From: Burkholderiales bacterium RIFCSPHIGHO2_12_FULL_69_20
GTDB lineage: Bacteria > Pseudomonadota > Gammaproteobacteria > Burkholderiales > Burkholderiaceae_C
Length of the DNA: 64,000 nucleotides
NCBI GenBank assembly: GCA_001770815.1
Contig: MESD01000043.1
Coordinates: 1-64,000, forward strand
Reading direction: 5' to 3'
The notes under the pieces are model-generated. The model did no database searches and had not been told where the DNA came from. It was given only the letters and a program-made list of their open reading frames with translations. Made by a program: the position numbers and the translations under genes. Positions 5,696-41,617 of the stretch are shown in pieces (positions within the stretch are counted from its first letter, which is position 1; each line of letters begins with the position of its first letter).

Positions 5696-6864
5696 CTGCT
5701 CCCTCCCCGCTGCGCACCGCCCTGAGCCTGGCGACCGCCTTGCTCGTCGCCAACCCGGTCCTGGCCCAGGGCCAGCCGCCGCTCAAGGTGGGCCTGATGC
5801 TGCCGGCCACCGGCACCTTTGCGGCCCTGGGCACCGCCATCGAGAACGGCTTCAAGCAGCATGTGGCCGAGCAGGGCGGCAAGCTCGGCGGCCGCGAGAT
5901 CCAGTACTTCAAGGTCGACGACGAGAGCGACCCGTCCAAGGCCACCGACAACGTCAACAAGCTGATCAAGCGCGACAACGTCGACGTCATCGTCGGCACG
6001 GTGCACTCCGGCGTGGCGCTGGCGATGGCCCGCGCCGTCAAGGACAGCAAGACCATGCTGATCGTGCCCAATGCCGGCGCCGACGCGATCACCGGCCCGC
6101 TGTGCGCACCCAACATCCTGCGCTCGAGCTTCAGCAACTGGCAGCCGGGTTATGCCACCGGGGTGATGGCCGCTCAGAAGGGCTACAAGAAGGCGATGTC
6201 CATCACCTGGAACTACGCCGCGGGCACCGAAACGGTGAAAGGCTTCGCCGAGGCCTTCGAGAAGGGCGGCGGCAAGGTCGTCAAGAACCTGAATCTGCCC
6301 TTCCCCAACGTCGAGTTCCAGGCCCTGCTGACCGAGATCGCGTCGCAGAAGCCGGATGTGGTGTTTGCCTTCTTTGCCGGCGGCGGTGCGGTCAAGTTCG
6401 TCAAGGACTACGACGCCGCGGGCCTGAAGAAAAGCGTGCCGCTGATGGGCTCGGGCTTCCTGACCGACGGCACGCTGGACGCACAGGGCGCGTCGGCCCA
6501 GGGCCTGCTGACCTCGCTGCACTACGCCGACGGCATCAACACACCGCGCAACAACGACTTCCGCAACAAGTATGCGGTGGCCTACAAGATGCAGCCCGAC
6601 GTCTATGCCGTGCAGGGCTACGACGCGGCGCAGCTGCTGCGCATCGGCCTGGACGCGGTGAAGGGCGACTTCAGCAAGCGCGACGCGATGGTGGCGGCGA
6701 TGCGCAAGTCCACGGTGGACAGCCCGCGTGGCAAGTACACGCTGTCGGCGGCGCACAACCCGGTGCAGGACTTCTACGTGCGCGAGGTCAAGGGGCGCGA
6801 GAACGTGATGACGGGCATCGCCGTCAAGGTCCTCCCCGACCCCGCCCGCGGCTGCAAGATGTGA
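5692..6864 (+). CDS. Periplasmic ABC binding protein, LivK/aromatic-acid type
   Basis: A 390-residue periplasmic binding protein of the branched-chain amino acid (Peripla_BP_6) family. The first 25 residues form a signal peptide ending in NPVLAQ, and the mature part opens with the family motif LKVGLMLPATGTFAALG. It overlaps the hydrolase by 4 bases and is followed by a palindromic repeat and the two permeases. Binding proteins of this family in aromatic-acid clusters usually bind benzoate-like acids rather than leucine, so benzoate is the likely ligand; this is inferred from location. Confidence 0.9.
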   Translation: MTAPSPLRTALSLATALLVANPVLAQGQPPLKVGLMLPATGTFAALGTAIENGFKQHVAEQGGKLGGREIQYFKVDDESDPSKATDNVNKLIKRDNVDVIVGTVHSGVALAMARAVKDSKTMLIVPNAGADAITGPLCAPNILRSSFSNWQPGYATGVMAAQKGYKKAMSITWNYAAGTETVKGFAEAFEKGGGKVVKNLNLPFPNVEFQALLTEIASQKPDVVFAFFAGGGAVKFVKDYDAAGLKKSVPLMGSGFLTDGTLDAQGASAQGLLTSLHYADGINTPRNNDFRNKYAVAYKMQPDVYAVQGYDAAQLLRIGLDAVKGDFSKRDAMVAAMRKSTVDSPRGKYTLSAAHNPVQDFYVREVKGRENVMTGIAVKVLPDPARGCKM

Positions 6865-32534: not shown

Positions 32535-33410
32535 TCAGGCCGGCACCGCGCCTGGGCCCTTTGCCGCCAGGGCGGCCTGCGCCACGCGCGCCGCCACTTC
32601 CTTGCGGTAGCGGTTGAGCTCTTGCACGCTGGCGAAGCTGCGCTCCATCAGCAGGCTCATGTTGTGCAGGATGCGGTCGACGACCTTGTTCTCCCACACG
32701 CTGTCGAACTGGATCTGCGTGTCCAGCCAATGCTCCAGCCAGGCCGGATCGGGCAGCCGGCTCTGGATCGTGTCGCGCGGAAACAGCGATTCGTTGACAT
32801 GCAGGTTGGTCGGGTGCAGCGCCTGCGCGGTGCGGCGTGCGCTGGCCATCAGCACGCCCACCTTGGTGAAGGCGGCACGCGCCTCGTCGCCGAACTTGGT
32901 CAGCGCCCGCTTCATGTAGCGCAGGTAGGCGCCGCCGTGGCGGGCCTCGTCGCGGGCCAGCGTCTCGTAGATCTGCTGGATCACCGGCTCGGTGTGCCAT
33001 TCGGCGGCGCGTCGGTACCAGTGGTTCAGCCGCACCTCGCCGCAGAAGTGCAGCATCAGCGTCTCGAGGGCCGGTGCCGGGTCGAACTCGAAGCGCACCG
33101 CATGCAGTTCGGCCTCGGTGGGCACCAGGTCGGGCCGGAAGCGCCGCAGGTATTCCATCAGCACCAGCGAGTGCTTCTGCTCCTCGAAGAACCACACGCT
33201 CATGAAGGCCGAGAAATCGCTGTCATCGCGGTTGTCACGCAAGAACATCTCGGTGGCCGGCAGCGCCGCCCACTCGGTGATGGCGTTCATCTTGATGGTC
33301 TGCGCCTGGGCTTCGGTCAGCTTGCTGGCATCGAACTGGGCCCAGGGGATGTCGCTGTCCATGTTCCAGCGCACGGCTTCGAGCTGCTTGAAAAGTTCAG
33401 GGTAGAGCAT
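32535..33410 (-). CDS. Ferritin-like diiron protein (acyl-ACP desaturase/AurF-like fold)
   Basis: A 291-residue soluble protein rich in helices. Two ExxH motifs, E77-H80 in FFEEQKH and E155-H158 in RDEARHGG, plus E46 and E125, make a complete set of ligands for a carboxylate-bridged diiron centre as in ferritin-like oxygenases. Its length fits the small desaturase-like oxygenases rather than ferritin or bacterioferritin. The reaction is unknown. The neighbours (glutathione peroxidase, lipid-modification operon) suggest a lipid or oxidative-stress link, which is inferred. Confidence 0.78.
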   Translation of the reverse strand: MLYPELFKQLEAVRWNMDSDIPWAQFDASKLTEAQAQTIKMNAITEWAALPATEMFLRDNRDDSDFSAFMSVWFFEEQKHSLVLMEYLRRFRPDLVPTEAELHAVRFEFDPAPALETLMLHFCGEVRLNHWYRRAAEWHTEPVIQQIYETLARDEARHGGAYLRYMKRALTKFGDEARAAFTKVGVLMASARRTAQALHPTNLHVNESLFPRDTIQSRLPDPAWLEHWLDTQIQFDSVWENKVVDRILHNMSLLMERSFASVQELNRYRKEVAARVAQAALAAKGPGAVPA

Positions 33411-33550: not shown

Positions 33551-34114
33551 ATGCGCCGTTTCCTGATCTTCGCCGGCCTGGCCGCCAGCCTGCTGCCCGC
33601 CGCCCGCGCTGCCCCCAACGCCTGCCCGGCGTTGCTGCAGCACACCCAGCCCCGCCTGCAGGACGAGAAGCCGGTGAACCTGTGCGAGCACGCCGGCAAG
33701 GTGGTGCTGGTGGTCAACACCGCCAGCTACTGCGGCTTCACCGGCCAGTACAAATCGCTGGAGGCTTTGGGCGCCACCTACCGCCGCCGCGGCCTGGTGG
33801 TGCTGGGCTTTCCCAGCAACGATTTCGGACAACAAGAGCCCGGCAGCGGCGCCGAAATCGCTGCCTTCTGCGAAAACACCTTCGGCGTGAAATTCCCGAT
33901 GTTCGCCAAATCGCATGTGGCGCCGGGCACCGGACGCCAGGTCAACCCACTGTTCGCCGGCCTGGCGCAGCGCAGCGGCCAGATGCCGAAGTGGAACTTC
34001 CACAAGTACCTGATCAGCCGGCAGGGCGACATGGTGATCAGCCACGCCTCGGCGATCGATCCGCAAGACCCCAGATTCCTGAAGGACTTGGAGAAACTAC
34101 TAAGGGCAAAGTGA
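33551..34114 (+). CDS. Secreted glutathione peroxidase
   Basis: A 187-residue glutathione peroxidase with an N-terminal signal peptide (MRRFLIFAGLAASLLPAARA). The active-site motif NTASYCGFTGQYKSLE has cysteine in place of selenocysteine. The second-site glutamine (FGQQEPGS) and tryptophan (MPKWNFHKYL) are present. It should reduce lipid or hydrogen peroxides in the periplasm, probably with thioredoxin-like donors. GAAGGA precedes the ATG. Confidence 0.92.
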   Translation: MRRFLIFAGLAASLLPAARAAPNACPALLQHTQPRLQDEKPVNLCEHAGKVVLVVNTASYCGFTGQYKSLEALGATYRRRGLVVLGFPSNDFGQQEPGSGAEIAAFCENTFGVKFPMFAKSHVAPGTGRQVNPLFAGLAQRSGQMPKWNFHKYLISRQGDMVISHASAIDPQDPRFLKDLEKLLRAK

Positions 34115-34459
34115 GACCATGAAGTCAGAATTGAACTCATCAGTTCAAATGAAGACCCAAAAGACCATGGCCTTCGACACGACAACCCCACGCCCCACCG
34201 CCCGCCCGAACACGGAACCTTTCCACACACTGACGCTCCATAGTGGTGTTGGCCGGCCGATAAAGCTGGCAGCGGCGGGGCCGGGCCAGAAGCCCGATCA
34301 AGCCGATGTGTCGATCAACCCCGTTTTTGCGCCGTGCAGCCTTTCGGATCTCCGAAGTGAAATCCTGAGGCACTTCTCCTCCTCCTCCCTCCCTCCCTCG
34401 TTGGCTTCAGGGCGCTGCACGGCCCTTTCATTCCCCCACCGCCCCGCCCGGAGCGTGTC
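34115..34459. other. Gene-free region before the lipid-modification operon
   Basis: 345 bases without a convincing gene. It holds a perfect hairpin TTGAACTCATCAGTTCAA (34131-34148) just after the peroxidase stop. CGATCAA occurs twice with starts 17 bases apart (34295 and 34312), and there is a pure pyrimidine run near 34376-34400. Local GC is lower than the genes around it. It probably carries the operon promoter, but I could not identify -35/-10 or extracytoplasmic-sigma boxes. Confidence 0.6.
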
Positions 34460-35794
34460 TTGACCGGCGTCGGGGCTCACGGCCCGCGCCGTGTCGCCGT
34501 GGTGGGCTCGGGCATCTCGGGCCTGTCGGCCGCCTGGTCGCTGGCAGATGCCGCCCAGGTCACGCTGTTCGAGGCCGACAGCCACTTCGGTGGCCATGCG
34601 CACACGGTCGACGTCACGCTCGATGGTTTGACGCATGGCGTGGACACCGGCTTCCTGGTGTTCAACCACGCCACCTACCCGAGGCTGGTGCAGTTGTTCG
34701 ATGAACTGCAGGTGCCGACTGCCGAATCCGAGATGTCGTTCTCGGTGCAGGTGCCCGACATCGGGCTGGAGTGGAGCGGCTGCAACCTCGACACCGTGTT
34801 CGCCCAGCGCCGCAACCTGCTGAGCCCGCGCTTTCTGGGCATGCTGCGCGACCTGATGCGCTTCAACCGCATCACCACCACGATCGCCGAGCGCAACGAA
34901 GAGGTCTCGCTGCAGCAGCCGATCGGCGATTTCCTGGTCGAGCGCGGCTTCTCGAACGCCTTCCGCGACTGGTACCTGCTGCCGATGCTGGGCTGCATCT
35001 GGAGCTGCCCCACCGATCAGATGCTGCGCTTTCCGGTGGCCACGATGATCCGCTTCTGTCACAACCACGGGCTGATCCGCGTCACCGACCGGCCGCAGTG
35101 GCACACGGTGCGCGGCGGCTCGCGCGAGTACGTGCGGCGCATGCTGGCCCGCATCCCCGATGCGCGGCTGAACACGCCGGTGCGCGCGCTGCGCCGCGTG
35201 CCGCCAGCCACCGCCGGCGCGGGCGTGTGGATCGACACCGACACCGGCAGCGAGCGCTTCGACGAGGTGATCCTGGCCGGCCACAGCGACCAGAGCCTGG
35301 CGCTGCTGGGCGCGCAGGCCAGCACCGACGAGCGCGCCGTGCTGGGCGCCATCGGCTACCACCGCAACCGCGCGGTGCTGCACACCGATGCCGGCCTGCT
35401 GCCGCAACGCCGCAAGGCCTGGGCCGCGTGGAACTACGTGCGCGCCCCGGCACAGGCGCAGGAGCAGTCCGCCGTCTGCCTGCACTACCTGATCAACCGC
35501 CTGCAGCCGCTGCCGTGGACGCAGCCGGTGGTGGTCTCGCTCAATCCCACCCGCGAGCCGGCCGCCGGCACGGTGCTGGGTGAGTTCGACTACGCGCATC
35601 CGGTGTTTGACGCCGCGGCCATCGCCGCGCAGGCGCGGGTGCCGCAGATCCAGGGGCAGTCGCATGTCTGGTTTGCCGGCGCCTGGACACGCTACGGCTT
35701 CCATGAGGATGGCCTGATGTCGGGGCTGGAGGTGGCCGAGGCCTTGCGCGCGCGCTGGGCGGACGCGTCGGCCGTGCTGCGAGTGGCGGCCTGA
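34460..35794 (+). CDS. FAD-dependent amine oxidase-like oxidoreductase
   Basis: A 444-residue flavoprotein. The dinucleotide motif VAVVGSGISGLSAAWSL is at residues 12-28, and the amine oxidase follow-on FEADSHFGGHAHTVDV binds the FAD. The C-terminal VWFAGAWTRYGFHEDGLMSG closes the FAD site. Related proteins occur with DUF1365 and cyclopropane-synthase-like genes; by analogy it may oxidise or desaturate a membrane fatty acyl chain. The start is a TTG with GGAG eight bases upstream. It heads an eight-gene operon and overlaps the next gene by one base. Confidence 0.88.
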   Translation: MTGVGAHGPRRVAVVGSGISGLSAAWSLADAAQVTLFEADSHFGGHAHTVDVTLDGLTHGVDTGFLVFNHATYPRLVQLFDELQVPTAESEMSFSVQVPDIGLEWSGCNLDTVFAQRRNLLSPRFLGMLRDLMRFNRITTTIAERNEEVSLQQPIGDFLVERGFSNAFRDWYLLPMLGCIWSCPTDQMLRFPVATMIRFCHNHGLIRVTDRPQWHTVRGGSREYVRRMLARIPDARLNTPVRALRRVPPATAGAGVWIDTDTGSERFDEVILAGHSDQSLALLGAQASTDERAVLGAIGYHRNRAVLHTDAGLLPQRRKAWAAWNYVRAPAQAQEQSAVCLHYLINRLQPLPWTQPVVVSLNPTREPAAGTVLGEFDYAHPVFDAAAIAAQARVPQIQGQSHVWFAGAWTRYGFHEDGLMSGLEVAEALRARWADASAVLRVAA

Positions 35795-36603
35795 TGAACC
35801 CGTCGGCCGCCACGCCCACCGGCTCGGTGCCGGCCCGGCCGCAGTTGGGCATCGGCCGGGTGCGCCACGAGCGGCTGCGGCCCACGCACCACGCCTTCGA
35901 CTACCCGACCTGGTTCCTGCTGCTGCCGCTGCGCGCGTTGCGTTCGCAGCCCGAACCCACGCTGCGGCGCAACCGCCGCGGCTGGGTCAGCTTCCACGAT
36001 GCCGACCACGGCGACGGCCGCGCCGACTGCCTGGCCTGGGTCGACGAGCTGCTGCGCAGCGAAGGCATCACCGACGCGCAGGGCGAGGTGTGGCTGCACA
36101 CCTACCCGCGCATGCTGGGCGTGGCCTTCAAGCCGGTCAGCTTCTGGTATTGCCACCGCAGCGACGGCGCGCTGGCGGCCATCGTCGCCGAGGTCAACAA
36201 CACCTTCGGCGGCCGCCACTGTTATCTGCTGGCCGGCCCCGATCTGGCCTGGGGCCGCGAGTTGGTGGCCCGCAAGCAGTTCCATGTCTCGCCGTTTTGC
36301 CTGGTGGAGGGCGGCTACCGCTTCCGCTTCCTGCGCACCGGCGATGCCGGCAGCGATGGCAGCGGCCGCACCGTCGCCCGCATCGATCACGACGACGCCG
36401 AGGGCCCGCTGCTGCTGACCAGCGTCAGCGGCGATCTGGCCCCGCTCACCGCCGCCCGCTTGCGCCACGCGTTGTGGCGCATGCCGCTGATGACGCTGGG
36501 CGTGATCGCGCGCATCCACTGGCAGGCGCTGCGCCTGCTGATCAAGCGCGTGCCGTTCTTCGGCAAAGGCCCGGCGGCCACGCCGTCGGCCCACGCACCT
36601 TGA
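35794..36603 (+). CDS. DUF1365 family protein
   Basis: A 269-residue protein that keeps the DUF1365 landmarks: an N-terminal RVRHERLRPTHHAFDYPTWF, the middle YPRMLGVAFKPVSFWYCHR, and EVNNTFGGRHCYLL with KQFHVSPF. The function is not established; the family nearly always sits between an amine oxidase-like gene and a cyclopropane-synthase-like gene, exactly as here. Conserved histidines and the HVSPF motif suggest a lipid-linked or metal-assisted role, which is inferred. Confidence 0.88.
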   Translation: MNPSAATPTGSVPARPQLGIGRVRHERLRPTHHAFDYPTWFLLLPLRALRSQPEPTLRRNRRGWVSFHDADHGDGRADCLAWVDELLRSEGITDAQGEVWLHTYPRMLGVAFKPVSFWYCHRSDGALAAIVAEVNNTFGGRHCYLLAGPDLAWGRELVARKQFHVSPFCLVEGGYRFRFLRTGDAGSDGSGRTVARIDHDDAEGPLLLTSVSGDLAPLTAARLRHALWRMPLMTLGVIARIHWQALRLLIKRVPFFGKGPAATPSAHAP

Positions 36604-36674
36604 CGTTTCCCGCATCCCGCTTCACGCATCTCCCCATCACGTTCCCACCTTCACCGGCCCCAGGCACCCCCCCG

Positions 36675-37910
36675 ATGCGCTCAGCCACCACCGCCACCCG
36701 CTCCCTGTCGCTGCCGCCGTCAGCGCCGCCAGCCGCACGCGCCCTGTTCGCCCTGCTGCGCAGCCTGCAGGTGGGCACGCTCGACGTGCAACTGCCCGAT
36801 GGCAGCCAGGCCCGTTTTGGCAACGGCGCGGCCGGCGAGCCGCATGCCGCCGTGCGACTGCACAACTGGCAGTTGTGCAATGCGGTGCTGCGCTCGGGGG
36901 ACATCGGCTTTGCCGAATCCTTCATCGCCGGCGACTGGGCCGCCAACGACCTGGTGGCGCTGCTGCAGCTGATCATTGCCAACCGCGCATCGATGGAGCG
37001 CGTGGTCTACGGCACCTGGTGGGGCAACCTGCTGCACCGCATGCGCCACCTGTTCAATCGCAACTCGCGCGCCGGCAGCAAGCGCAACATCCACGCGCAC
37101 TACGACCTGGGCAATCCGTTCTACCGGCTGTGGCTGGACGAGACCATGACCTATTCCAGCGCCTGGTTCAACGGCGACACCCGTCAAGACACCGCCAGCG
37201 CGCAGCAGGCCAAGATGCGGCGCGCGTTGACCGAGTGTCAGGTGGGCGCCGGCAGCCAGGTGCTGGAGATCGGCTGCGGCTGGGGCGGCCTGGCCGAATG
37301 CGCGGCGCGCGACTTCGGCGCCCACGTCACCGGCGTGACGCTGTCGGCTGAGCAGCTGGTTTTCGGGCAGCAGCGGCTGGCCAACGCCGGCCTGGCCGAT
37401 CGCGCCACGCTGCGCTTCCAGGATTACCGCGACATCGCCGACGGCCCGTTCGACGCCATCGTGTCGATCGAGATGTTCGAGGCGGTGGGCCGCGAGTACT
37501 GGGCCAGCTACTTCAAGACGGTGCACGACCAGCTCAAGCCGGGCGGGCGCGCCTGCATCCAGTCGATCACCATCGCGGACGCGCTGTTCGAGCGTTATGT
37601 GGCCGGCACCGATTTCATCCAGCAGTACATCTTTCCCGGTGGCCTGCTGCCCTGCCCCAGCGCCTTCCGCGCCGAGGCCGCCAAGGCCGGCCTGCAGGTG
37701 GAACGTGAGCTGGCCTTCGGCCCCGACTACGCCGAGACCCTGCGCCGCTGGCGGCAGGACTTTCTGCACCAGGACACGCAGGTGCGCGGGCTGGGCTTCG
37801 ACACCCGCTTCATGCGCACCTGGGAGTTCTATCTGGCGTACTGCGAGGCGGCCTTTGCCAGCGGCGCCACTGACGTGATGCAGTTCACCCTGCGCCGGCC
37901 GGCGGCTTGA
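36675..37910 (+). CDS. Cyclopropane-fatty-acyl-phospholipid synthase family methylase
   Basis: A 411-residue SAM-dependent enzyme. The N-terminal domain is of the CFA synthase type (IGFAESFIAGDW). The SAM site VLEIGCGWGGLAECAA is near residue 196, preceded by NIHAHYDLGNPFYRLWLDETMTYSSA (quoted in part as the substrate-entry region), and QYIFPGGLLP is the family signature. It either makes cyclopropane rings or methylates the double bond of a phospholipid acyl chain, as UfaM does in furan fatty acid synthesis. It begins 71 bases after DUF1365. Confidence 0.9.
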   Translation: MRSATTATRSLSLPPSAPPAARALFALLRSLQVGTLDVQLPDGSQARFGNGAAGEPHAAVRLHNWQLCNAVLRSGDIGFAESFIAGDWAANDLVALLQLIIANRASMERVVYGTWWGNLLHRMRHLFNRNSRAGSKRNIHAHYDLGNPFYRLWLDETMTYSSAWFNGDTRQDTASAQQAKMRRALTECQVGAGSQVLEIGCGWGGLAECAARDFGAHVTGVTLSAEQLVFGQQRLANAGLADRATLRFQDYRDIADGPFDAIVSIEMFEAVGREYWASYFKTVHDQLKPGGRACIQSITIADALFERYVAGTDFIQQYIFPGGLLPCPSAFRAEAAKAGLQVERELAFGPDYAETLRRWRQDFLHQDTQVRGLGFDTRFMRTWEFYLAYCEAAFASGATDVMQFTLRRPAA

Positions 37911-37921
37911 CGCGTACTCCG

Positions 37922-38491
37922 ATGAAGCCCTCCCGCCGTCACTGCCTGAGCACGCTGGCCGGCGCGCTGCTGATCGGCGGCGTGACGTCGGCGCGCGCCC
38001 AGGGCAGCGCCCAGGCCGCCGCCTTGCCGCCCGAACTGGCCAGCGAGCTGCCCGGCGCGCGCTGGCGCGGCACCGGCGTGATGCGCTTCTTCGGCCTGCA
38101 CATCTACGACGCGCGGCTGTGGAGCGCGGCCCCGGTGGCCGGTGATGGCGCCGACCAGCCACTGGCGCTGGAGCTGATCTACGCCCGCGCGCTGGTGGGC
38201 GAGCAGATCGCCAGCCGTTCGCTCCAGGAGATGGCGCGCATCGGTGCGATCAGCGATGAGCAGTCGGCGCGCTGGCTGCAGGCGATGACCCGGCTGTTTC
38301 CCGATGTGCGCGGCGGCGACCGGCTCACCGGCGTGCAGCGCCCGGGCCGGGCGGCGCGCTTCTTCCTCAACGGCGTGCTGCGCGGCGAGGTGCCCGACGC
38401 CGATTTCACGCGGCTGTTCTTCGGCATCTGGCTCTCGCCACGCACGTCCGAACCGCGGCTGCGCGCGCAGCTGCTGGGCGGCGCACCGTGA
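37922..38491 (+). CDS. Chalcone isomerase-like periplasmic protein
   Basis: A 189-residue protein with a twin-arginine-like signal (SRRHCLSTLAGALL) ending near ARAQ. The rest matches the chalcone isomerase-like fold (WRGTGVMRFFGLHIYDARLW, then FFGIWLSPRTSEPRLRAQLL). Bacterial members do not act on flavonoids; related folds bind fatty acids, which fits the lipid operon. A TTG at 37907 overlapping the previous stop is an alternative start. It overlaps the MFS gene by 4 bases. Confidence 0.85.
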   Translation: MKPSRRHCLSTLAGALLIGGVTSARAQGSAQAAALPPELASELPGARWRGTGVMRFFGLHIYDARLWSAAPVAGDGADQPLALELIYARALVGEQIASRSLQEMARIGAISDEQSARWLQAMTRLFPDVRGGDRLTGVQRPGRAARFFLNGVLRGEVPDADFTRLFFGIWLSPRTSEPRLRAQLLGGAP

Positions 38492-39798
38492 GCGGCGGCA
38501 CGCTGGCGCCGCGCGCCAGCGCCTCGTCCGGCCCGGCGGCCTTCAGCCTGCTCGACGGCCTGCGCTACGGCGCACTGGGCGCACCGCTGGCCTTTGCCGC
38601 GCTGCCGCTGTACGTGTTGCTGCCGAACCATTACGCCGCGCAGCTGGGCGTGCCGCTGGCCAGCCTGGGCGCGGTGCTGCTGGGCGCGCGTGCGCTCGAC
38701 GCCGTGGTCGATCCGTGGCTGGGCCGGGTGATCGACCGCGGCCTGGCGCGCCCGCGCGCACAGGTGATGGCCGCGGCCGGCGCCGCGGCGCTGCTGATGG
38801 CGCTGGGCTTTGCCGCGCTGTTCTTTCCGCCGGTGCGCGGCAGCAACGCCTTGCTCGCCTGGTGCGCCGCGGCGCTGCTGGTCACCTCGCTGGGCTACAG
38901 CGCGCTGGGCGTGCTGCACCAGGCCTGGGGCGCCCGGCTGGGCGGGGGCGATGCGGCGCAGGCGCGCATCGCCGGCTGGCGCGAGGGCCTGTCGCTGGCC
39001 GGTGTGCTGGCCGCCAGCGTGCTGCCGGCGCTGGCGGGCATCCCGGTGATGGTGGCGGTGTGCATCGGCGGCCTGGCGCTGGCCATGGTGGCGCTGGGCG
39101 GCGCGCCGTTCCGGGCCGCGCCGCCGCACCTGCTGCGGCCGGGGCAGCCTGCCGAGCCGCGCGCCTGGGCGCTGCCGTGGCGGGTGCCGGCCTTCCGCCG
39201 GCTGATGGCAGTGTTCGTGCTCAACGGCGTGGCCAGTGCGGTGCCGGCCACCCTGGTGATCTTCTTCATCCGCGACCGGCTGCAGGCGCCGGCCTGGGAG
39301 CCGCTGTTCCTCGGCAGCTACTTTGCCGCCGCCGCGCTGTCGATGCCGCTGTGGGTGCGGGCGGTGGCGCGTTTCGGGCTGGTGCCCTGCTGGCTGACGG
39401 GCATGGGCCTGGCGATCGCCGCCTTCGTCTGGGCCACCCGGCTGGGCGCTGGTGACGGCGCCGCCTTCGTCGCCATCTGCGTGGGCTCGGGCATCGCGCT
39501 GGGCGCCGATCTGGCCATCCCCAGCGCACTGCTCACCGGGGTGATCCAGCGCGCCGGCCACGCCTTGGGCCACGAGGGCCACTACTTCGGCTGGTGGACC
39601 TGCGCCAACAAGCTCAATCTGGCCTTGGCCGCCGGCCTGGCACTGCCGGCGCTGCAGGCGCTGGGCTATGCGCCCGGCTCGCGCGACGCGGCGGCGCTGA
39701 CCTCGCTGGCACTCGTCTACGCCGCCATCCCCTGTTTGCTGAAAGCCGGCGCCGCCGCGCTGCTCTGGCACCACCGACATCACCTGGATCGCCCATGA
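38488..39798 (+). CDS. MFS (GPH-type) transporter
   Basis: A 436-residue transporter with about twelve membrane segments. DAVVDPWLGRVIDRG between segments 2 and 3 is the glycoside-pentoside-hexuronide symporter type of MFS motif. The start is a GTG overlapping the previous stop, and the end overlaps the DUF3833 gene (ATGA). Inside a lipid-modification operon it may move a lipid precursor or fragment; no substrate can be assigned. Confidence 0.88.
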   Translation: MSGGTLAPRASASSGPAAFSLLDGLRYGALGAPLAFAALPLYVLLPNHYAAQLGVPLASLGAVLLGARALDAVVDPWLGRVIDRGLARPRAQVMAAAGAAALLMALGFAALFFPPVRGSNALLAWCAAALLVTSLGYSALGVLHQAWGARLGGGDAAQARIAGWREGLSLAGVLAASVLPALAGIPVMVAVCIGGLALAMVALGGAPFRAAPPHLLRPGQPAEPRAWALPWRVPAFRRLMAVFVLNGVASAVPATLVIFFIRDRLQAPAWEPLFLGSYFAAAALSMPLWVRAVARFGLVPCWLTGMGLAIAAFVWATRLGAGDGAAFVAICVGSGIALGADLAIPSALLTGVIQRAGHALGHEGHYFGWWTCANKLNLALAAGLALPALQALGYAPGSRDAAALTSLALVYAAIPCLLKAGAAALLWHHRHHLDRP

Positions 39799-40367
39799 CC
39801 CACTGCACCTCGTCGCCCCTTCGCCGCTGGACCGCCGGTGCCCTGCTGGTGCTCGCCGGCCTCTCGCCCTGGGCCCTGACCGGCTGCGCCAGCACCACGC
39901 CCGCCGACTACGCCAGCCAGTCGCCCAAGCTCGACCTCAAGCAGTACCTCAACGGCAAGCTGCTGGCGCACGGCATCGTCACCGACCGCGGCGGCAAGGT
40001 GCTGCAGCGCTTCACCGTGAAGATGACCGGCACCTGGGTGGGCGACACCGGCACGCTGGACGAGCGTTTCACCTACTCCGACGGCCGCCAGGAGACCCGC
40101 GTCTGGACGCTGCAGCGCGGCGCCGACGGCCACTACACCGGCCGCGCCGCCGACGTGTTGGGCGAGGCCGTGGGCCAGGCCGGCGGCAACGCGTTCAACT
40201 GGCGCTACACCCTGCTGCTGCCGGTCGACGGTCGTACCTGGGAGGTGCAGTTCGACGACTGGATGTTCCTGGTCGACGAGCAGGTGATGCTGAACCGGGC
40301 GGTGATGAGCAAGTTCGGCATCCGGCTCGGCGAGGTGCTGCTGTCCTTCCAGCGCCTGCCTGGCTGA
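39795..40367 (+). CDS. DUF3833 lipoprotein
   Basis: A 190-residue protein of the DUF3833 family with a lipoprotein signal whose lipobox LTGC places the lipidated cysteine near residue 31. The body is beta-rich (LDLKQYLNGKLLAHGIVTDRG, then DDWMFLVDEQVMLNRAVMSKFG). The family has no known biochemical role and recurs beside SDR and cyclopropane-synthase-like genes. It is coupled to the MFS gene by a 4-base overlap. Confidence 0.87.
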   Translation: MTHCTSSPLRRWTAGALLVLAGLSPWALTGCASTTPADYASQSPKLDLKQYLNGKLLAHGIVTDRGGKVLQRFTVKMTGTWVGDTGTLDERFTYSDGRQETRVWTLQRGADGHYTGRAADVLGEAVGQAGGNAFNWRYTLLLPVDGRTWEVQFDDWMFLVDEQVMLNRAVMSKFGIRLGEVLLSFQRLPG

Positions 40368-40386
40368 ACTGCCCCGAAAGCCCACG

Positions 40387-41172
40387 ATGGCCCTGAACCC
40401 CCGCATCACCGACTGGCGCGGCCAGCATGTCTGGCTGGTCGGTGCATCCACCGGCATCGGCCGCGCCACCGCGGCGCGGCTGCACCAGCTGGGCGCGTTG
40501 GTCACGGTGTCGGCGCGCGGTGCCGAGGCGTTGCACGCCTTCGTTGCCGAGCACCCCGGCGCCCAGGCGCTGCCGCTGGACGCCACCGACGTGCAAAGCC
40601 TGCACGAGGCCACCCGCCAGCTGCTGGCGTTGCACGGCCGCATCGACCTGGTGCTGTACTGCGCCGGCCATTACCGCGCCATGCAGGCCACCAGCTTCGA
40701 CCTGGCCGACGCGCTGCGCCACCAGCAGATCAACTACGTGGGCGCGCTCAACCTGCTGGATGCGGTGCTGCCCACGCTGCTGCGCCAGGCGGCTGCCGGA
40801 ACGCCGGCGCACCTGAGCCTGGTGTCCAGCGTGGCCGGCTACCGCGGCCTGCCCAATGCGCTGGCCTACGGCCCCACCAAGGCCGCGCTGATCAACCTGG
40901 CCGAGGTGCTGTACCTCGACCTGCATGCCCGCGGCGTGGGCGTGTCGCTGATCAACCCGGGCTTCGTCGAGACGCCGCTGACGGCGCAGAACCGCTTTCA
41001 CATGCCGGCCCTGATGAGCCCCGAGGCGGCGGCGCTGGCGATCGTGGGCGGCTGGGGGAAGGGCGAGTTCGAGATCCACTTCCCCAAGCGCTTCACGCGC
41101 ATGCTGAAGGCGCTGCGGCCCTTGCCCGACAGCTTGTACTTCGGCGCCGTGCGCCGCGCCGTCCGTGTCTGA
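40387..41172 (+). CDS. Short-chain dehydrogenase/reductase
   Basis: A 261-residue SDR. The cofactor motif VGASTGIGRATAARL is near residue 18, the catalytic serine lies in SLVSSVAGYRG and the catalytic pair in YGPTKAAL (Y and K). The cofactor is probably NADP(H), judged weakly from the residues after the glycine motif. A C-terminal RFTRMLKALRPLPDSLYF may be a membrane-contact region. It overlaps the NTF2-like gene by 8 bases. Confidence 0.9.
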   Translation: MALNPRITDWRGQHVWLVGASTGIGRATAARLHQLGALVTVSARGAEALHAFVAEHPGAQALPLDATDVQSLHEATRQLLALHGRIDLVLYCAGHYRAMQATSFDLADALRHQQINYVGALNLLDAVLPTLLRQAAAGTPAHLSLVSSVAGYRGLPNALAYGPTKAALINLAEVLYLDLHARGVGVSLINPGFVETPLTAQNRFHMPALMSPEAAALAIVGGWGKGEFEIHFPKRFTRMLKALRPLPDSLYFGAVRRAVRV

Positions 41173-41617
41173 GGCCACCGCCTCGCGCCACCCCGACCCG
41201 CGCGTGCAGCGCGTGGTGGCGCTGTACGAGACCCTGGTGCCCGCCGACCTGCCGGCGCTGCGCGGCGTTTATGCCGACAGCGCACGCTTCAAGGACCCGT
41301 TCAACCAGGTGCAGGGCGTGGCCGCCATCGCCCGCATCTTCGGCCACATGTTCAAGCAGCTCGACGCGCCACGCTTCGAGGTGCTGGCCATCGTGGCCAG
41401 CGGCGACGACTGCTTCCTGACCTGGGACTTCCGTTTCCGCGCCCGCGGCGCCGGCGCGGCGGTTATGGGCATCCACGGCGCCAGCCACCTGCGTTTCGAC
41501 AGCGACGGCCGGGTGGCGATGCACCGCGATTATTGGGACGCCGCCGAGGAGCTGTACGAAAAGCTGCCCGTGCTGGGCGTGCTGATGCGCTGGTTGAAGC
41601 GGCGGGCCGGCAGCTGA
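41165..41617 (+). CDS. NTF2/SnoaL-like protein
   Basis: A 150-residue protein with the cone-shaped NTF2/SnoaL fold pattern (VVALYETLVPADLPALRGVYADSARFKDPFN at the start, of which the FKDPFN block is diagnostic; MHRDYWDAAEELYEKLPVLG near the end). The start is GTG inside the SDR gene. Proteins of this type bind or isomerise small hydrophobic molecules. It closes the eight-gene operon and converges on the TonB-C-like gene. Confidence 0.85.
   Translation: MSEATASRHPDPRVQRVVALYETLVPADLPALRGVYADSARFKDPFNQVQGVAAIARIFGHMFKQLDAPRFEVLAIVASGDDCFLTWDFRFRARGAGAAVMGIHGASHLRFDSDGRVAMHRDYWDAAEELYEKLPVLGVLMRWLKRRAGS

Follow-up and report, generated by a model that had tools for sequence, protein, structure and literature searches.

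A probable furan fatty acid operon with a conserved structured RNA and a candidate sigma-E promoter upstream of ufaD

Introduction

The reactions of UfaM, UfaD and UfaO, the enzymes that make furan fatty acids (FuFA), have been described in R. sphaeroides and R. palustris; UfaO, a DUF1365 protein, uses O2 and forms the furan (PMC7380195). In R. palustris the genes ufaD, ufaO and ufaM have the consecutive locus numbers RPA2571-2569, and in R. sphaeroides ufaD and ufaO head the series RSP1091-1087, followed by RSP1089, RSP1088 and RSP1087, with ufaM being RSP2144 (PMC7380195). A Halomonas UfaM expressed in E. coli yields a FuFA intermediate (PMC12089945). In Pseudomonas, clusters uniting ufaM with genes for an FAD oxidoreductase and an SDR are light-induced, controlled by LitR and adjoined by a photolyase gene (PMC9758184).

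The locus described here, from what is probably a phototrophic burkholderialean relative of Rubrivivax and Roseateles, holds the three biosynthetic genes of R. palustris and adds genes for CHI, MFS, DUF3833, SDR and NTF2 proteins; no FufM was assigned in the window (the whole 64,000-nucleotide stretch analysed). As in R. sphaeroides, ufaD and ufaO come first and accessory genes follow. In R. sphaeroides, however, ufaM lies elsewhere and control is by the ECF11 sigma-E/ChrR pair, neither of which arrangements is seen in the window. The methylase, FAD oxidoreductase and SDR genes are together as in the Pseudomonas clusters, but no regulator like theirs was found. Our evidence consists of homology, gene order, an active-site signature, RNA covariation and a promoter motif; from it we infer that the enzymes are active in this organism, that the genes are transcribed together under sigma-E control, and what the RNA and the accessory genes do. 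We are fairly confident of the explanation as a whole, namely a complete operon for monomethyl FuFA with a UfaM that would close no ring, accessory envelope genes, and transcription from a sigma-E promoter through a conserved RNA into ufaD.

Results and Discussion

Organization and conservation of the operon

Eight open reading frames run head to tail from 34460 to 41617 on the forward strand. The initial annotation had proposed an eight-gene operon with these limits, and the Pfam matches and the conservation of the set in relatives bear it out.

34460..35794, + strand: ufaD-like FAD-dependent fatty acyl desaturase; 444 aa, TTG start; Pfam Amino_oxidase (4.2e-20)/NAD_binding_8
35794..36603, + strand: ufaO-like DUF1365 protein, predicted furan-forming oxygenase; 269 aa; PF07103 (7e-76)
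36675..37910, + strand: ufaM-type SAM-dependent acyl methylase; 411 aa from ATG; CMAS PF02353 (3.1e-83)
37907..38491, + strand: chalcone-isomerase-like (CHI) protein; 194 aa from TTG; Chalcone_3 PF16036 (2.4e-10)
38488..39798, + strand: GPH-type MFS transporter; 436 aa; MFS_2 PF13347 (4.6e-36)
39795..40367, + strand: DUF3833 protein; 190 aa; PF12915 (3e-69)
40387..41172, + strand: SDR oxidoreductase; 261 aa; adh_short PF00106 (1.7e-33)
41165..41617, + strand: NTF2/SnoaL-like protein; 150 aa; SnoaL_2 PF12680 (3.9e-18)

Most junctions had been said to overlap, and with the starts used five of seven do (by 1, 4, 4, 4 and 8 nt), or four of seven if CHI starts at ATG 37922 instead of TTG 37907. Gaps of 71 nt and 19 nt follow ufaO and the DUF3833 gene, the former counted to the ufaM ATG at 36675; position 36663 reads GGC, and the methylase searches took 36663-37907 as the query extent. 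L045, the relative that the methylase tree places closest, has ATG where ufaD here has its TTG start. Read by eye, the N-terminus of the CHI-like protein is signal-peptide-like and the DUF3833 protein carries a lipobox-like LTGC. The latter is predicted to be a lipocalin-like barrel: its model (pLDDT 87.5) gave 12 Foldseek matches at E <= 0.001, which are beta-barrels.

UfaD occurs with UfaO in all 30 relatives' loci and in all 40 further loci (70/70), and UfaM is present in 29 of the former and 33 of the latter. Orthology was called from homologues and gene order, in a comparison that left out the sequences verified in R. sphaeroides and R. palustris. All eight families stand together in 19 of the 30 relatives' loci, some of which are cut by contig ends. 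By annotation, they do so too on Azoarcus sp. KH32C pAZKH (AZKH_RS26020-25985), where the order is identical and a divergent MerR regulator gene adjoins ufaD. The grouping is therefore not due to chance. DUF3833 accompanies CHI in nine of ten CHI-holding loci of a phylum sample. Five loci of family f60, taken as Rhodobacteraceae from their gene order, read ufaD-ufaO-MFS-SDR; DUF3833 was called in three of them and CHI or NTF2 in none of the five. The parallel drawn initially with RSP1087-1091 is off: that region contains ufaD and ufaO, and the methylase lies outside it as RSP2144 (PMC7380195).

The methylase and the choice between two products

In a tree of 86 sequences, built without the verified RSP2144 and RPA2569 sequences, the methylase falls in a UfaM clade (support 0.998) of 63 operon-linked methylases and 11 further matches, apart from E. 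coli Cfa and from its own genome's Cfa-type paralogue, L001. The suggestion that the SAM enzyme is UfaM-like is thus upheld; grouping with classical Cfa, named beforehand as its refutation, was tested for and not found. Classical Cfa has three bicarbonate ligands, Glu, His and Tyr (PMC11387697). This set is incomplete here, the methylase keeping the conserved Glu239 and Tyr317 and having Gln for His266. The position of E. coli His266 is Gln in 63/63 operon-linked and 11/11 other members of the UfaM clade, and His in E. coli Cfa and nine further members of the Cfa clade. With Gln where Cfa has the His that binds bicarbonate, UfaM would close no cyclopropane, and the proton would instead be lost from the chain.

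One could argue that the enzyme is nevertheless an ordinary cyclopropane synthase and that the operon's products are not furans but cyclopropane acids or simple methyl-branched ones. The CMAS domain with its retained Glu and Tyr and the 31% identity to E. coli Cfa would suit such a role, which is made highly improbable by the separate clade, the Gln in each of the 74 clade sequences examined, the existence of a distinct, His-bearing Cfa-type enzyme (L001) in the same genome and the tie of the methylase gene to those of UfaD and UfaO. If UfaM does methylate without ring closure, as its sequence suggests, Gln in place of the ligand His would be a sharp marker of that reaction. A simple look at the sequence would then tell, among CMAS enzymes, a UfaM that makes a methyl-alkene from a cyclopropane synthase, and mutating this residue would be a clear way to ask how a single fold picks between two products. 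A literature search, with most subscription journals outside its scope, found no description of this Gln in UfaM.

The proposed pathway

Homologues of UfaD, UfaO (DUF1365) and UfaM, the gene set of the Ufa pathway, co-occur in the operon, in agreement with the link to a FuFA locus made at the outset. The flavoprotein, suspected then of being a desaturase, is UfaD-like; the DUF1365 gene, left as a bare domain name, can now be given a role, that of UfaO, the O2-using furan former (PMC7380195). Judged by these likenesses, the eight genes very probably build FuFA, a rare antioxidant membrane lipid. UfaM would methylate cis-vaccenoyl chains of phospholipids without cyclopropane closure to give 11Me-12t-18:1, UfaD would desaturate this product to the 10t,12t diene, and UfaO would use O2 to close the furan ring, with 9M5-FuFA as the expected end product. 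A literature search on 11-methyl acids in the genera concerned found no paper with that term. The AlphaFold model of UfaO (pLDDT 86.1) had no PDB match at E <= 0.001, for which reason no cofactor is proposed from structure; a sequence search of the PDB gave no clear relative (best E 0.2). His25, Glu133, His142 and His164 are candidates only for a metal site.

The CHI-like, MFS, lipocalin-like DUF3833, SDR and NTF2-like proteins probably have no part in synthesis and instead serve in the envelope, transporting or processing furan lipids or what arises from their oxidation. Single deletions of RSP1087-1089 are described as leaving the R. sphaeroides fatty acid profile unchanged (PMC7380195). Conserved as a group, the envelope proteins encoded here may handle furan lipids.

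A structured RNA and a candidate promoter upstream of ufaD

Two features precede the operon:

34214..34241, + strand: candidate sigma-E (ECF02-like) promoter GGAACCT-N16-TCCAT, from a spacing peak in homologous upstreams with shuffle control
34331..34423, + strand: structured RNA; P1 34331-34340/34414-34423; P2 34342-34357; P3 34363-34371/34404-34412; pyrimidine (CUCC-repeat) loop 34372-34403

The RNA (93 nt) ends 36 nt before ufaD and folds into two long helices and P2 with a three-way junction. The window copy scores 118 bits to model R1, being itself among that model's 14 sequences. Covariation support is strong: across 79 homologues, 15 of 19 pairs show two-sided changes and 94.7% of cells are paired, against 0/500 shuffles and 39.5-46.0% paired in slid structures, a comparison in which related sequences may exceed shuffles without any structure and which the slid controls answer only in part. 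There is one copy per genome, confined among the genomes searched to the host's family, and CCTCC is present in all 30 model-found copies (CCUCC within the single-stranded loop). The RNA is not in Rfam 15, and our literature search, which left out most subscription journals, found no description of it. The window had no Rfam match at gathering score; relaxed scans gave two weak matches in the window stretch, none in L174 (Rubrivivax gelatinosus IM 151, whose locus has the RNA together with ufaD) and 14 sub-threshold ones in L140, the best of which (isrD, 30.1 of 37 bits, 6032-6074) is the downstream hairpin. The RNA was not found in the Azoarcus pAZKH stretch, where the best score, 12.5 bits (E 0.26), fell at a different place in that sequence.

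The consensus of ECF02 (RpoE) promoters is GGAACTT-N16-TCnnA. Upstream of the RNA the pattern is GGAACYT-N16-TCnAT: GGAAC and TC are 18 nt apart in 38 and 19 nt apart in 35 of 109 homologous upstreams, with at most four of 109 at each of 16 other spacings, and a shuffle control was run. A strict match is missing in 11/30 and 26/79 RNA copies. The genome also holds an RpoE match above NCBI's cut-off, which together with the motif fits envelope-stress control of the ECF02 type. Transcription of the operon would most likely start at this candidate promoter and run through the RNA into ufaD.

Promoters of the ECF11 sigma-E/ChrR regulon are of the TGATC type. TGATC is absent from the intergenic sequence searched (34115-34459), and the genome gave no Cupin_7/ChrR match (219 contigs, 96.7% complete, such that a gene may have been missed) and only a 20.6-bit LitR match over 64 residues. 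Light or singlet oxygen might still control the operon through ECF11-ChrR or LitR/CarH encoded elsewhere in the genome: of 70 ufa loci, 23 have ChrR nearby, 19 an ECF sigma and 19 LitR, and this genome has two adjacent Photo_RC (reaction-centre) genes. Given the missing motif and the absent or weak regulator matches, we think such control quite unlikely. The singlet-oxygen regulator pair is unseen here; singlet oxygen itself stays plausible as a stress because the organism encodes reaction-centre genes. Under sigma-E control, the FuFA pathway would form one compact operon seemingly wired to a stress signal other than the original singlet-oxygen circuit.

A role for the RNA

In 51 of the 79 named loci ufaD comes immediately after the RNA, and here the operon starts 36 nt past P1, as would befit a purely cis-acting leader (an attenuator or ribosome-binding-site control) with no function of its own. 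This is unlikely, however, as the RNA is retained in two relatives without a DUF1365 match (G015 and G016), and, of 14 additional loci retrieved around an RNA copy, 11 have no ufaD within the stretch. A terminator hairpin, moreover, was called after 17 of 28 non-adjacent copies and, in 10 of the 51 loci with adjacent ufaD, between the RNA and that gene, a contrast that is soft in that five non-adjacent loci (L181, L186, L188, L199 and L201) end within 200 nt downstream. Because copies persist without the ufa operon, the RNA is probably an sRNA gene of its own, here serving also as operon leader.

Sigma-E-dependent sRNAs and anti-Shine-Dalgarno (CCUCCUCCC) sRNAs are known, for example the CcsR/cuckoo RNAs. 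The window RNA shares with these a candidate stress sigma promoter and a CUCC-rich single-stranded loop that resembles an anti-Shine-Dalgarno sequence; its fold differs and sets it apart by description. In the minimum-energy fold of 34248-34520, pairing of the loop with ufaD's own Shine-Dalgarno sequence is absent. It is tempting, if speculative, to see here a new family of sigma-E-dependent anti-Shine-Dalgarno sRNAs, single-copy in the Rubrivivax/Roseateles/Hydrogenophaga/Polaromonas group and doubling as the 5' leader of the FuFA operon. Under envelope stress one promoter would then yield both a regulator of translation and a lipid with a protective role.

The idea that ufa-linked copies have lost their terminator was rejected, the U-runs of 69 copies next to ufaD being like those of the 38 others (p = 0.81); L173 and L167, whose contigs equal those of L043 and L142 in length, were left out of this comparison. 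Since the U-runs past P1 show no weakening where ufaD follows, and a hairpin does intervene in some adjacent loci, read-through from the RNA into ufaD is something we infer.

A diiron protein gene further upstream (32535-33410) was considered as an obligate partner and rejected. It occurs in 27 of 40 relatives, own genome counted, is kept without DUF1365 in two (G016 and G030) and is missing from six that have DUF1365 (G017, G020, G023, G027, G028 and G039); we treat it as a syntenic neighbour.

Organization of the ufa locus

The locus comprises the following features:

32535-33410, - strand: ferritin-like diiron protein that weakly resembles acyl-ACP desaturases (PF03405, 1.3e-7; DesA2, E 0.014)
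33551-34114, + strand: glutathione peroxidase gene, immediately preceding the promoter and RNA
34214-34241, + strand: promoter candidate, a GGAAC/TC motif upstream of the RNA
34331-34423, + strand: 93-nt structured RNA upstream of ufaD
34460-41617, + strand: eight head-to-tail ORFs (ufaD, ufaO (DUF1365), ufaM, CHI-like, GPH-type MFS, DUF3833, SDR, NTF2-like)

Pfam matched the domain content that the initial annotation had assigned to the eight genes; among the matches listed, NCBIfam gave no family above cut-off for any of these ORFs. Neighboring genes overlap at five of the seven junctions with the starts used here, or at four if the CHI gene begins at its ATG. The operon lies on contig 43 of a 5.53-Mb genome (219 contigs, 96.7% complete).

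Lemke et al. (2020, PMC7380195) assign the methylation of cis-vaccenate on phospholipids to UfaM, formation of the 10t,12t diene to UfaD (RSP1091) and the O2-using furan formation to UfaO (RSP1090, DUF1365); the R. palustris UfaD, UfaO and UfaM are RPA2571, 2570 and 2569. Single deletions of RSP1087, 1088 and 1089 left the fatty acid profile unchanged in that study. Its R. sphaeroides ufaM mutant is the RSP2144 mutant, and by that paper the initial annotation wrongly placed the methylase in the RSP1087-1091 region. Judged by sequence, the window operon is the whole furan fatty acid (FuFA) biosynthetic set together with five accessory genes. It is a new member of a known pathway, with a predicted product; what varies is, apparently, its regulation and the RNA.

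The methylase is of the UfaM type

Phylogeny had been proposed as the check on whether the methylase is UfaM-like or a classical Cfa, and it came out for UfaM. In a FastTree phylogeny of 86 sequences (406 columns), the 63 operon-linked methylases, the window's included, form one clade with 11 further hits (support 0.998), leaving outside E. coli Cfa and the second CMAS gene of the same genome. Five of the further members adjoin ufaO in their own genomes (three of these are loci already in the fetched set), and six are unlinked copies from genomes of one family, f60. The window methylase is 41-44% identical to these six copies, 32% to its CMAS paralogue and 31% to E. coli Cfa.

The bicarbonate ligands of E. 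coli Cfa are Glu239, His266 and Tyr317 (PMC11387697). By alignment, the methylases of the UfaM clade retain the Glu239 and Tyr317 equivalents; the His266 position is Gln in all 63 linked and all 11 other members, and His in E. coli and nine other sequences of the Cfa clade. Two distant proteins on the Cfa side deviate: L291 has His but Ser at 139, and L292 has Gln, so that this residue by itself also occurs outside the UfaM clade. At the column whose numbering we take to be Cys139, the linked methylases carry Ser (53), Ala (6), Cys (3) or Gly (1). Without the bicarbonate-ligand His, the new methyl group would not be deprotonated, and the chain would give up a proton instead.

Conservation of the operon and its accessory proteins

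DUF1365 matched 31 of the 40 relatives and 78 of the 199 genomes sampled across the phylum, the window's own genome being counted in both. Besides the window's own, we fetched loci from every matching relative (30) and from 40 of the remaining 77 matching genomes of the phylum sample, and scored gene presence by profile search with cut-offs of our own (CHI matches below 140 bits, many of which overlapped other genes, were discarded).

Gene presence in the fetched loci (30 relatives; 40 phylum)
UfaD: 30; 40
UfaM: 29; 33
CHI: 22; 10
MFS: 21; 13
DUF3833: 20; 16
SDR: 20; 26
NTF2: 20; 16
All eight genes together: 19; 2

The eight genes of Azoarcus sp. KH32C are identical in kind and order to those of the window, with a divergent MerR gene there. 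Five f60 loci (L092, L093, L095, L096, L102), taken to be Rhodobacteraceae from their gene order, read ufaD-ufaO-MFS-SDR, and three of them also have a DUF3833 call. ChrR adjoins all five and an ECF sigma factor four; ufaM was not found nearby. A second, distant CMAS-like methylase lies near ufaD-ufaO in L035, L036, L037, L064, L069-L072, L081 and L105, often with a membrane protein that we read from its sequence as DUF1295-like; it is possibly FufM-like or serves another lipid step.

No PDB entry is clearly related to UfaO by sequence. The UfaO structure model (41 sequences, pLDDT 86.1, pTM 0.84) consists mainly of strands plus C-terminal helices, with pLDDT below 50 at residues 165-169, within a conserved motif; Foldseek returned no match at E <= 0.001, the best being YwiB (2.2e-3). 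Conservation across 71 alignment rows makes His25 (70, one gap), Glu133 (68), His142 (66) and His164 (60) candidate metal ligands. The DUF3833 model (15 sequences, pLDDT 87.5) resembles lipocalin-like barrels, with 12 Foldseek matches at E <= 0.001, including BFA1, CpeS and designed barrels. Since the CHI-like protein looks exported and an MFS protein is present, this fold suggests that the three handle a hydrophobic ligand across the envelope.

A conserved structured RNA

The element upstream of ufaD is conserved and comprises a long closing helix (P1), a small hairpin (P2), and a second long helix (P3) with a CUCC-repeat loop. For the window stretch the folding energy is -37.5 kcal/mol (z -3.3; one of 200 shuffles equally good). 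Fourteen sequences, from which the covariance model was built, have two-sided changes at 10 of 19 pairs; 79 listed copies (78 distinct) have them at 15 of 19 (290 cells, 94.7% paired), a value reached by none of 500 shuffles, while slid structures gave at most 58 two-sided cells. P2, excluded from the 19-pair count, forms when folded alone in 100 of the 106 usable copies (of 109), at a mean of -6.5 versus -3.4 kcal/mol for shuffled sequences, and equals or beats all 30 shuffles in only 32 of the usable copies. No Rfam family reached its gathering score in the window or in two relatives.

With filters strict enough to lose weak matches, the model matched 28 of 60 relatives (28 of 36 genomes of the window's family versus 0 of 24 others) and, among 250 genomes drawn more widely, 7, all in the family (7 of its 8 listed genomes); each had one copy. 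A pattern scan of named genomes, selecting for the loop and not the helices, yielded at least 80 loci, in Rubrivivax, Roseateles, Mitsuaria, Pelomonas, Paucibacter, Azohydromonas, Hydrogenophaga, Polaromonas and records whose names are less precise. The model matches 79 of the 80 listed, the exception (L184) being from a MAG labelled Myxococcales. One matching locus (L189), from a MAG labelled Methylotenera, represents either another family or a mislabelled contig.

Although ufaD directly follows the RNA in 51 of the 79 listed loci, the RNA is probably not just a leader of the ufa operon, because copies also lie without ufaD downstream and two genomes (G015, G016) keep the RNA with DUF1365 unmatched. 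In 13 of the 28 listed loci lacking an adjacent ufaD, the RNA is flanked by the diiron gene and CorA. Fourteen further loci were fetched around copies of the RNA, and 11 of these have no ufaD within the stretch. The Azoarcus operon stretch contains no such RNA (best 12.5 bits). A terminator search of the 36 nt separating P1 from ufaD in the window found no hairpin. Five or more T directly follow P1 in L140, L145, L146 and L149 (ufaD downstream in L145 only), and for this reason P1 itself may serve as the terminator of some copies.

The diiron gene is a common divergent neighbor of the RNA/ufa locus, and its product shows 72-97% identity in the 26 further genomes that gave a match. The glutathione peroxidase gene lies near ufa in 16 of the 30 relatives' loci.

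Promoter and regulators

The motif GGAAC-N17-20-TCnn(A/T), presumably of the ECF02/RpoE type by its consensus, is found in the 220 nt preceding 19 of 30 copies and 53 of the 79 listed copies, against a background of 0.012 per 220 nt across whole loci. The 26 listed copies that lack a strict match come mostly from Roseateles, Mitsuaria, Pelomonas and Paucibacter. Among 109 upstreams (79 from listed copies; two of the 109 probably counted twice), the GGAAC-to-TC spacing is 18 nt in 38 and 19 nt in 35, each of the other 16 spacings from 10 to 27 nt occurring in at most 4. A shuffle control limited to spacings 17-18 gave a mean of 1.2 and a maximum of 5 in 40 shuffles versus 42 observed. An RpoE of the window's own genome scores above the NCBI cut-off (259.8 vs 236.15 bits).

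FuFA genes belong to the ECF11 sigma core regulon, as stated in a review (PMC6852236). Within 9 kb of ufaO, the 70 loci contain ChrR (23), ECF sigma factors (19), LitR/CarH-like MerR-B12 proteins (19) and photolyase (13), one representative of each kind being verified with Pfam. The contigs searched of the window's own genome (219 contigs, 96.7% complete) gave no Cupin_7 match, and for LitR only a 20.6-bit match of 64 residues. LitR control and the RNA may replace each other. Two adjacent Photo_RC genes, pufL/pufM-like, lie on contig 199 (37454-39236) and make anoxygenic phototrophy probable for this organism.

Four family genomes have ufa and no RNA match: LitR is found in G007 (locus L059) and G022 (L040), and is not in reach in G005 (L047) and G014 (L060). 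Both LitR and the RNA lie upstream of ufa in loci L106 and L107.
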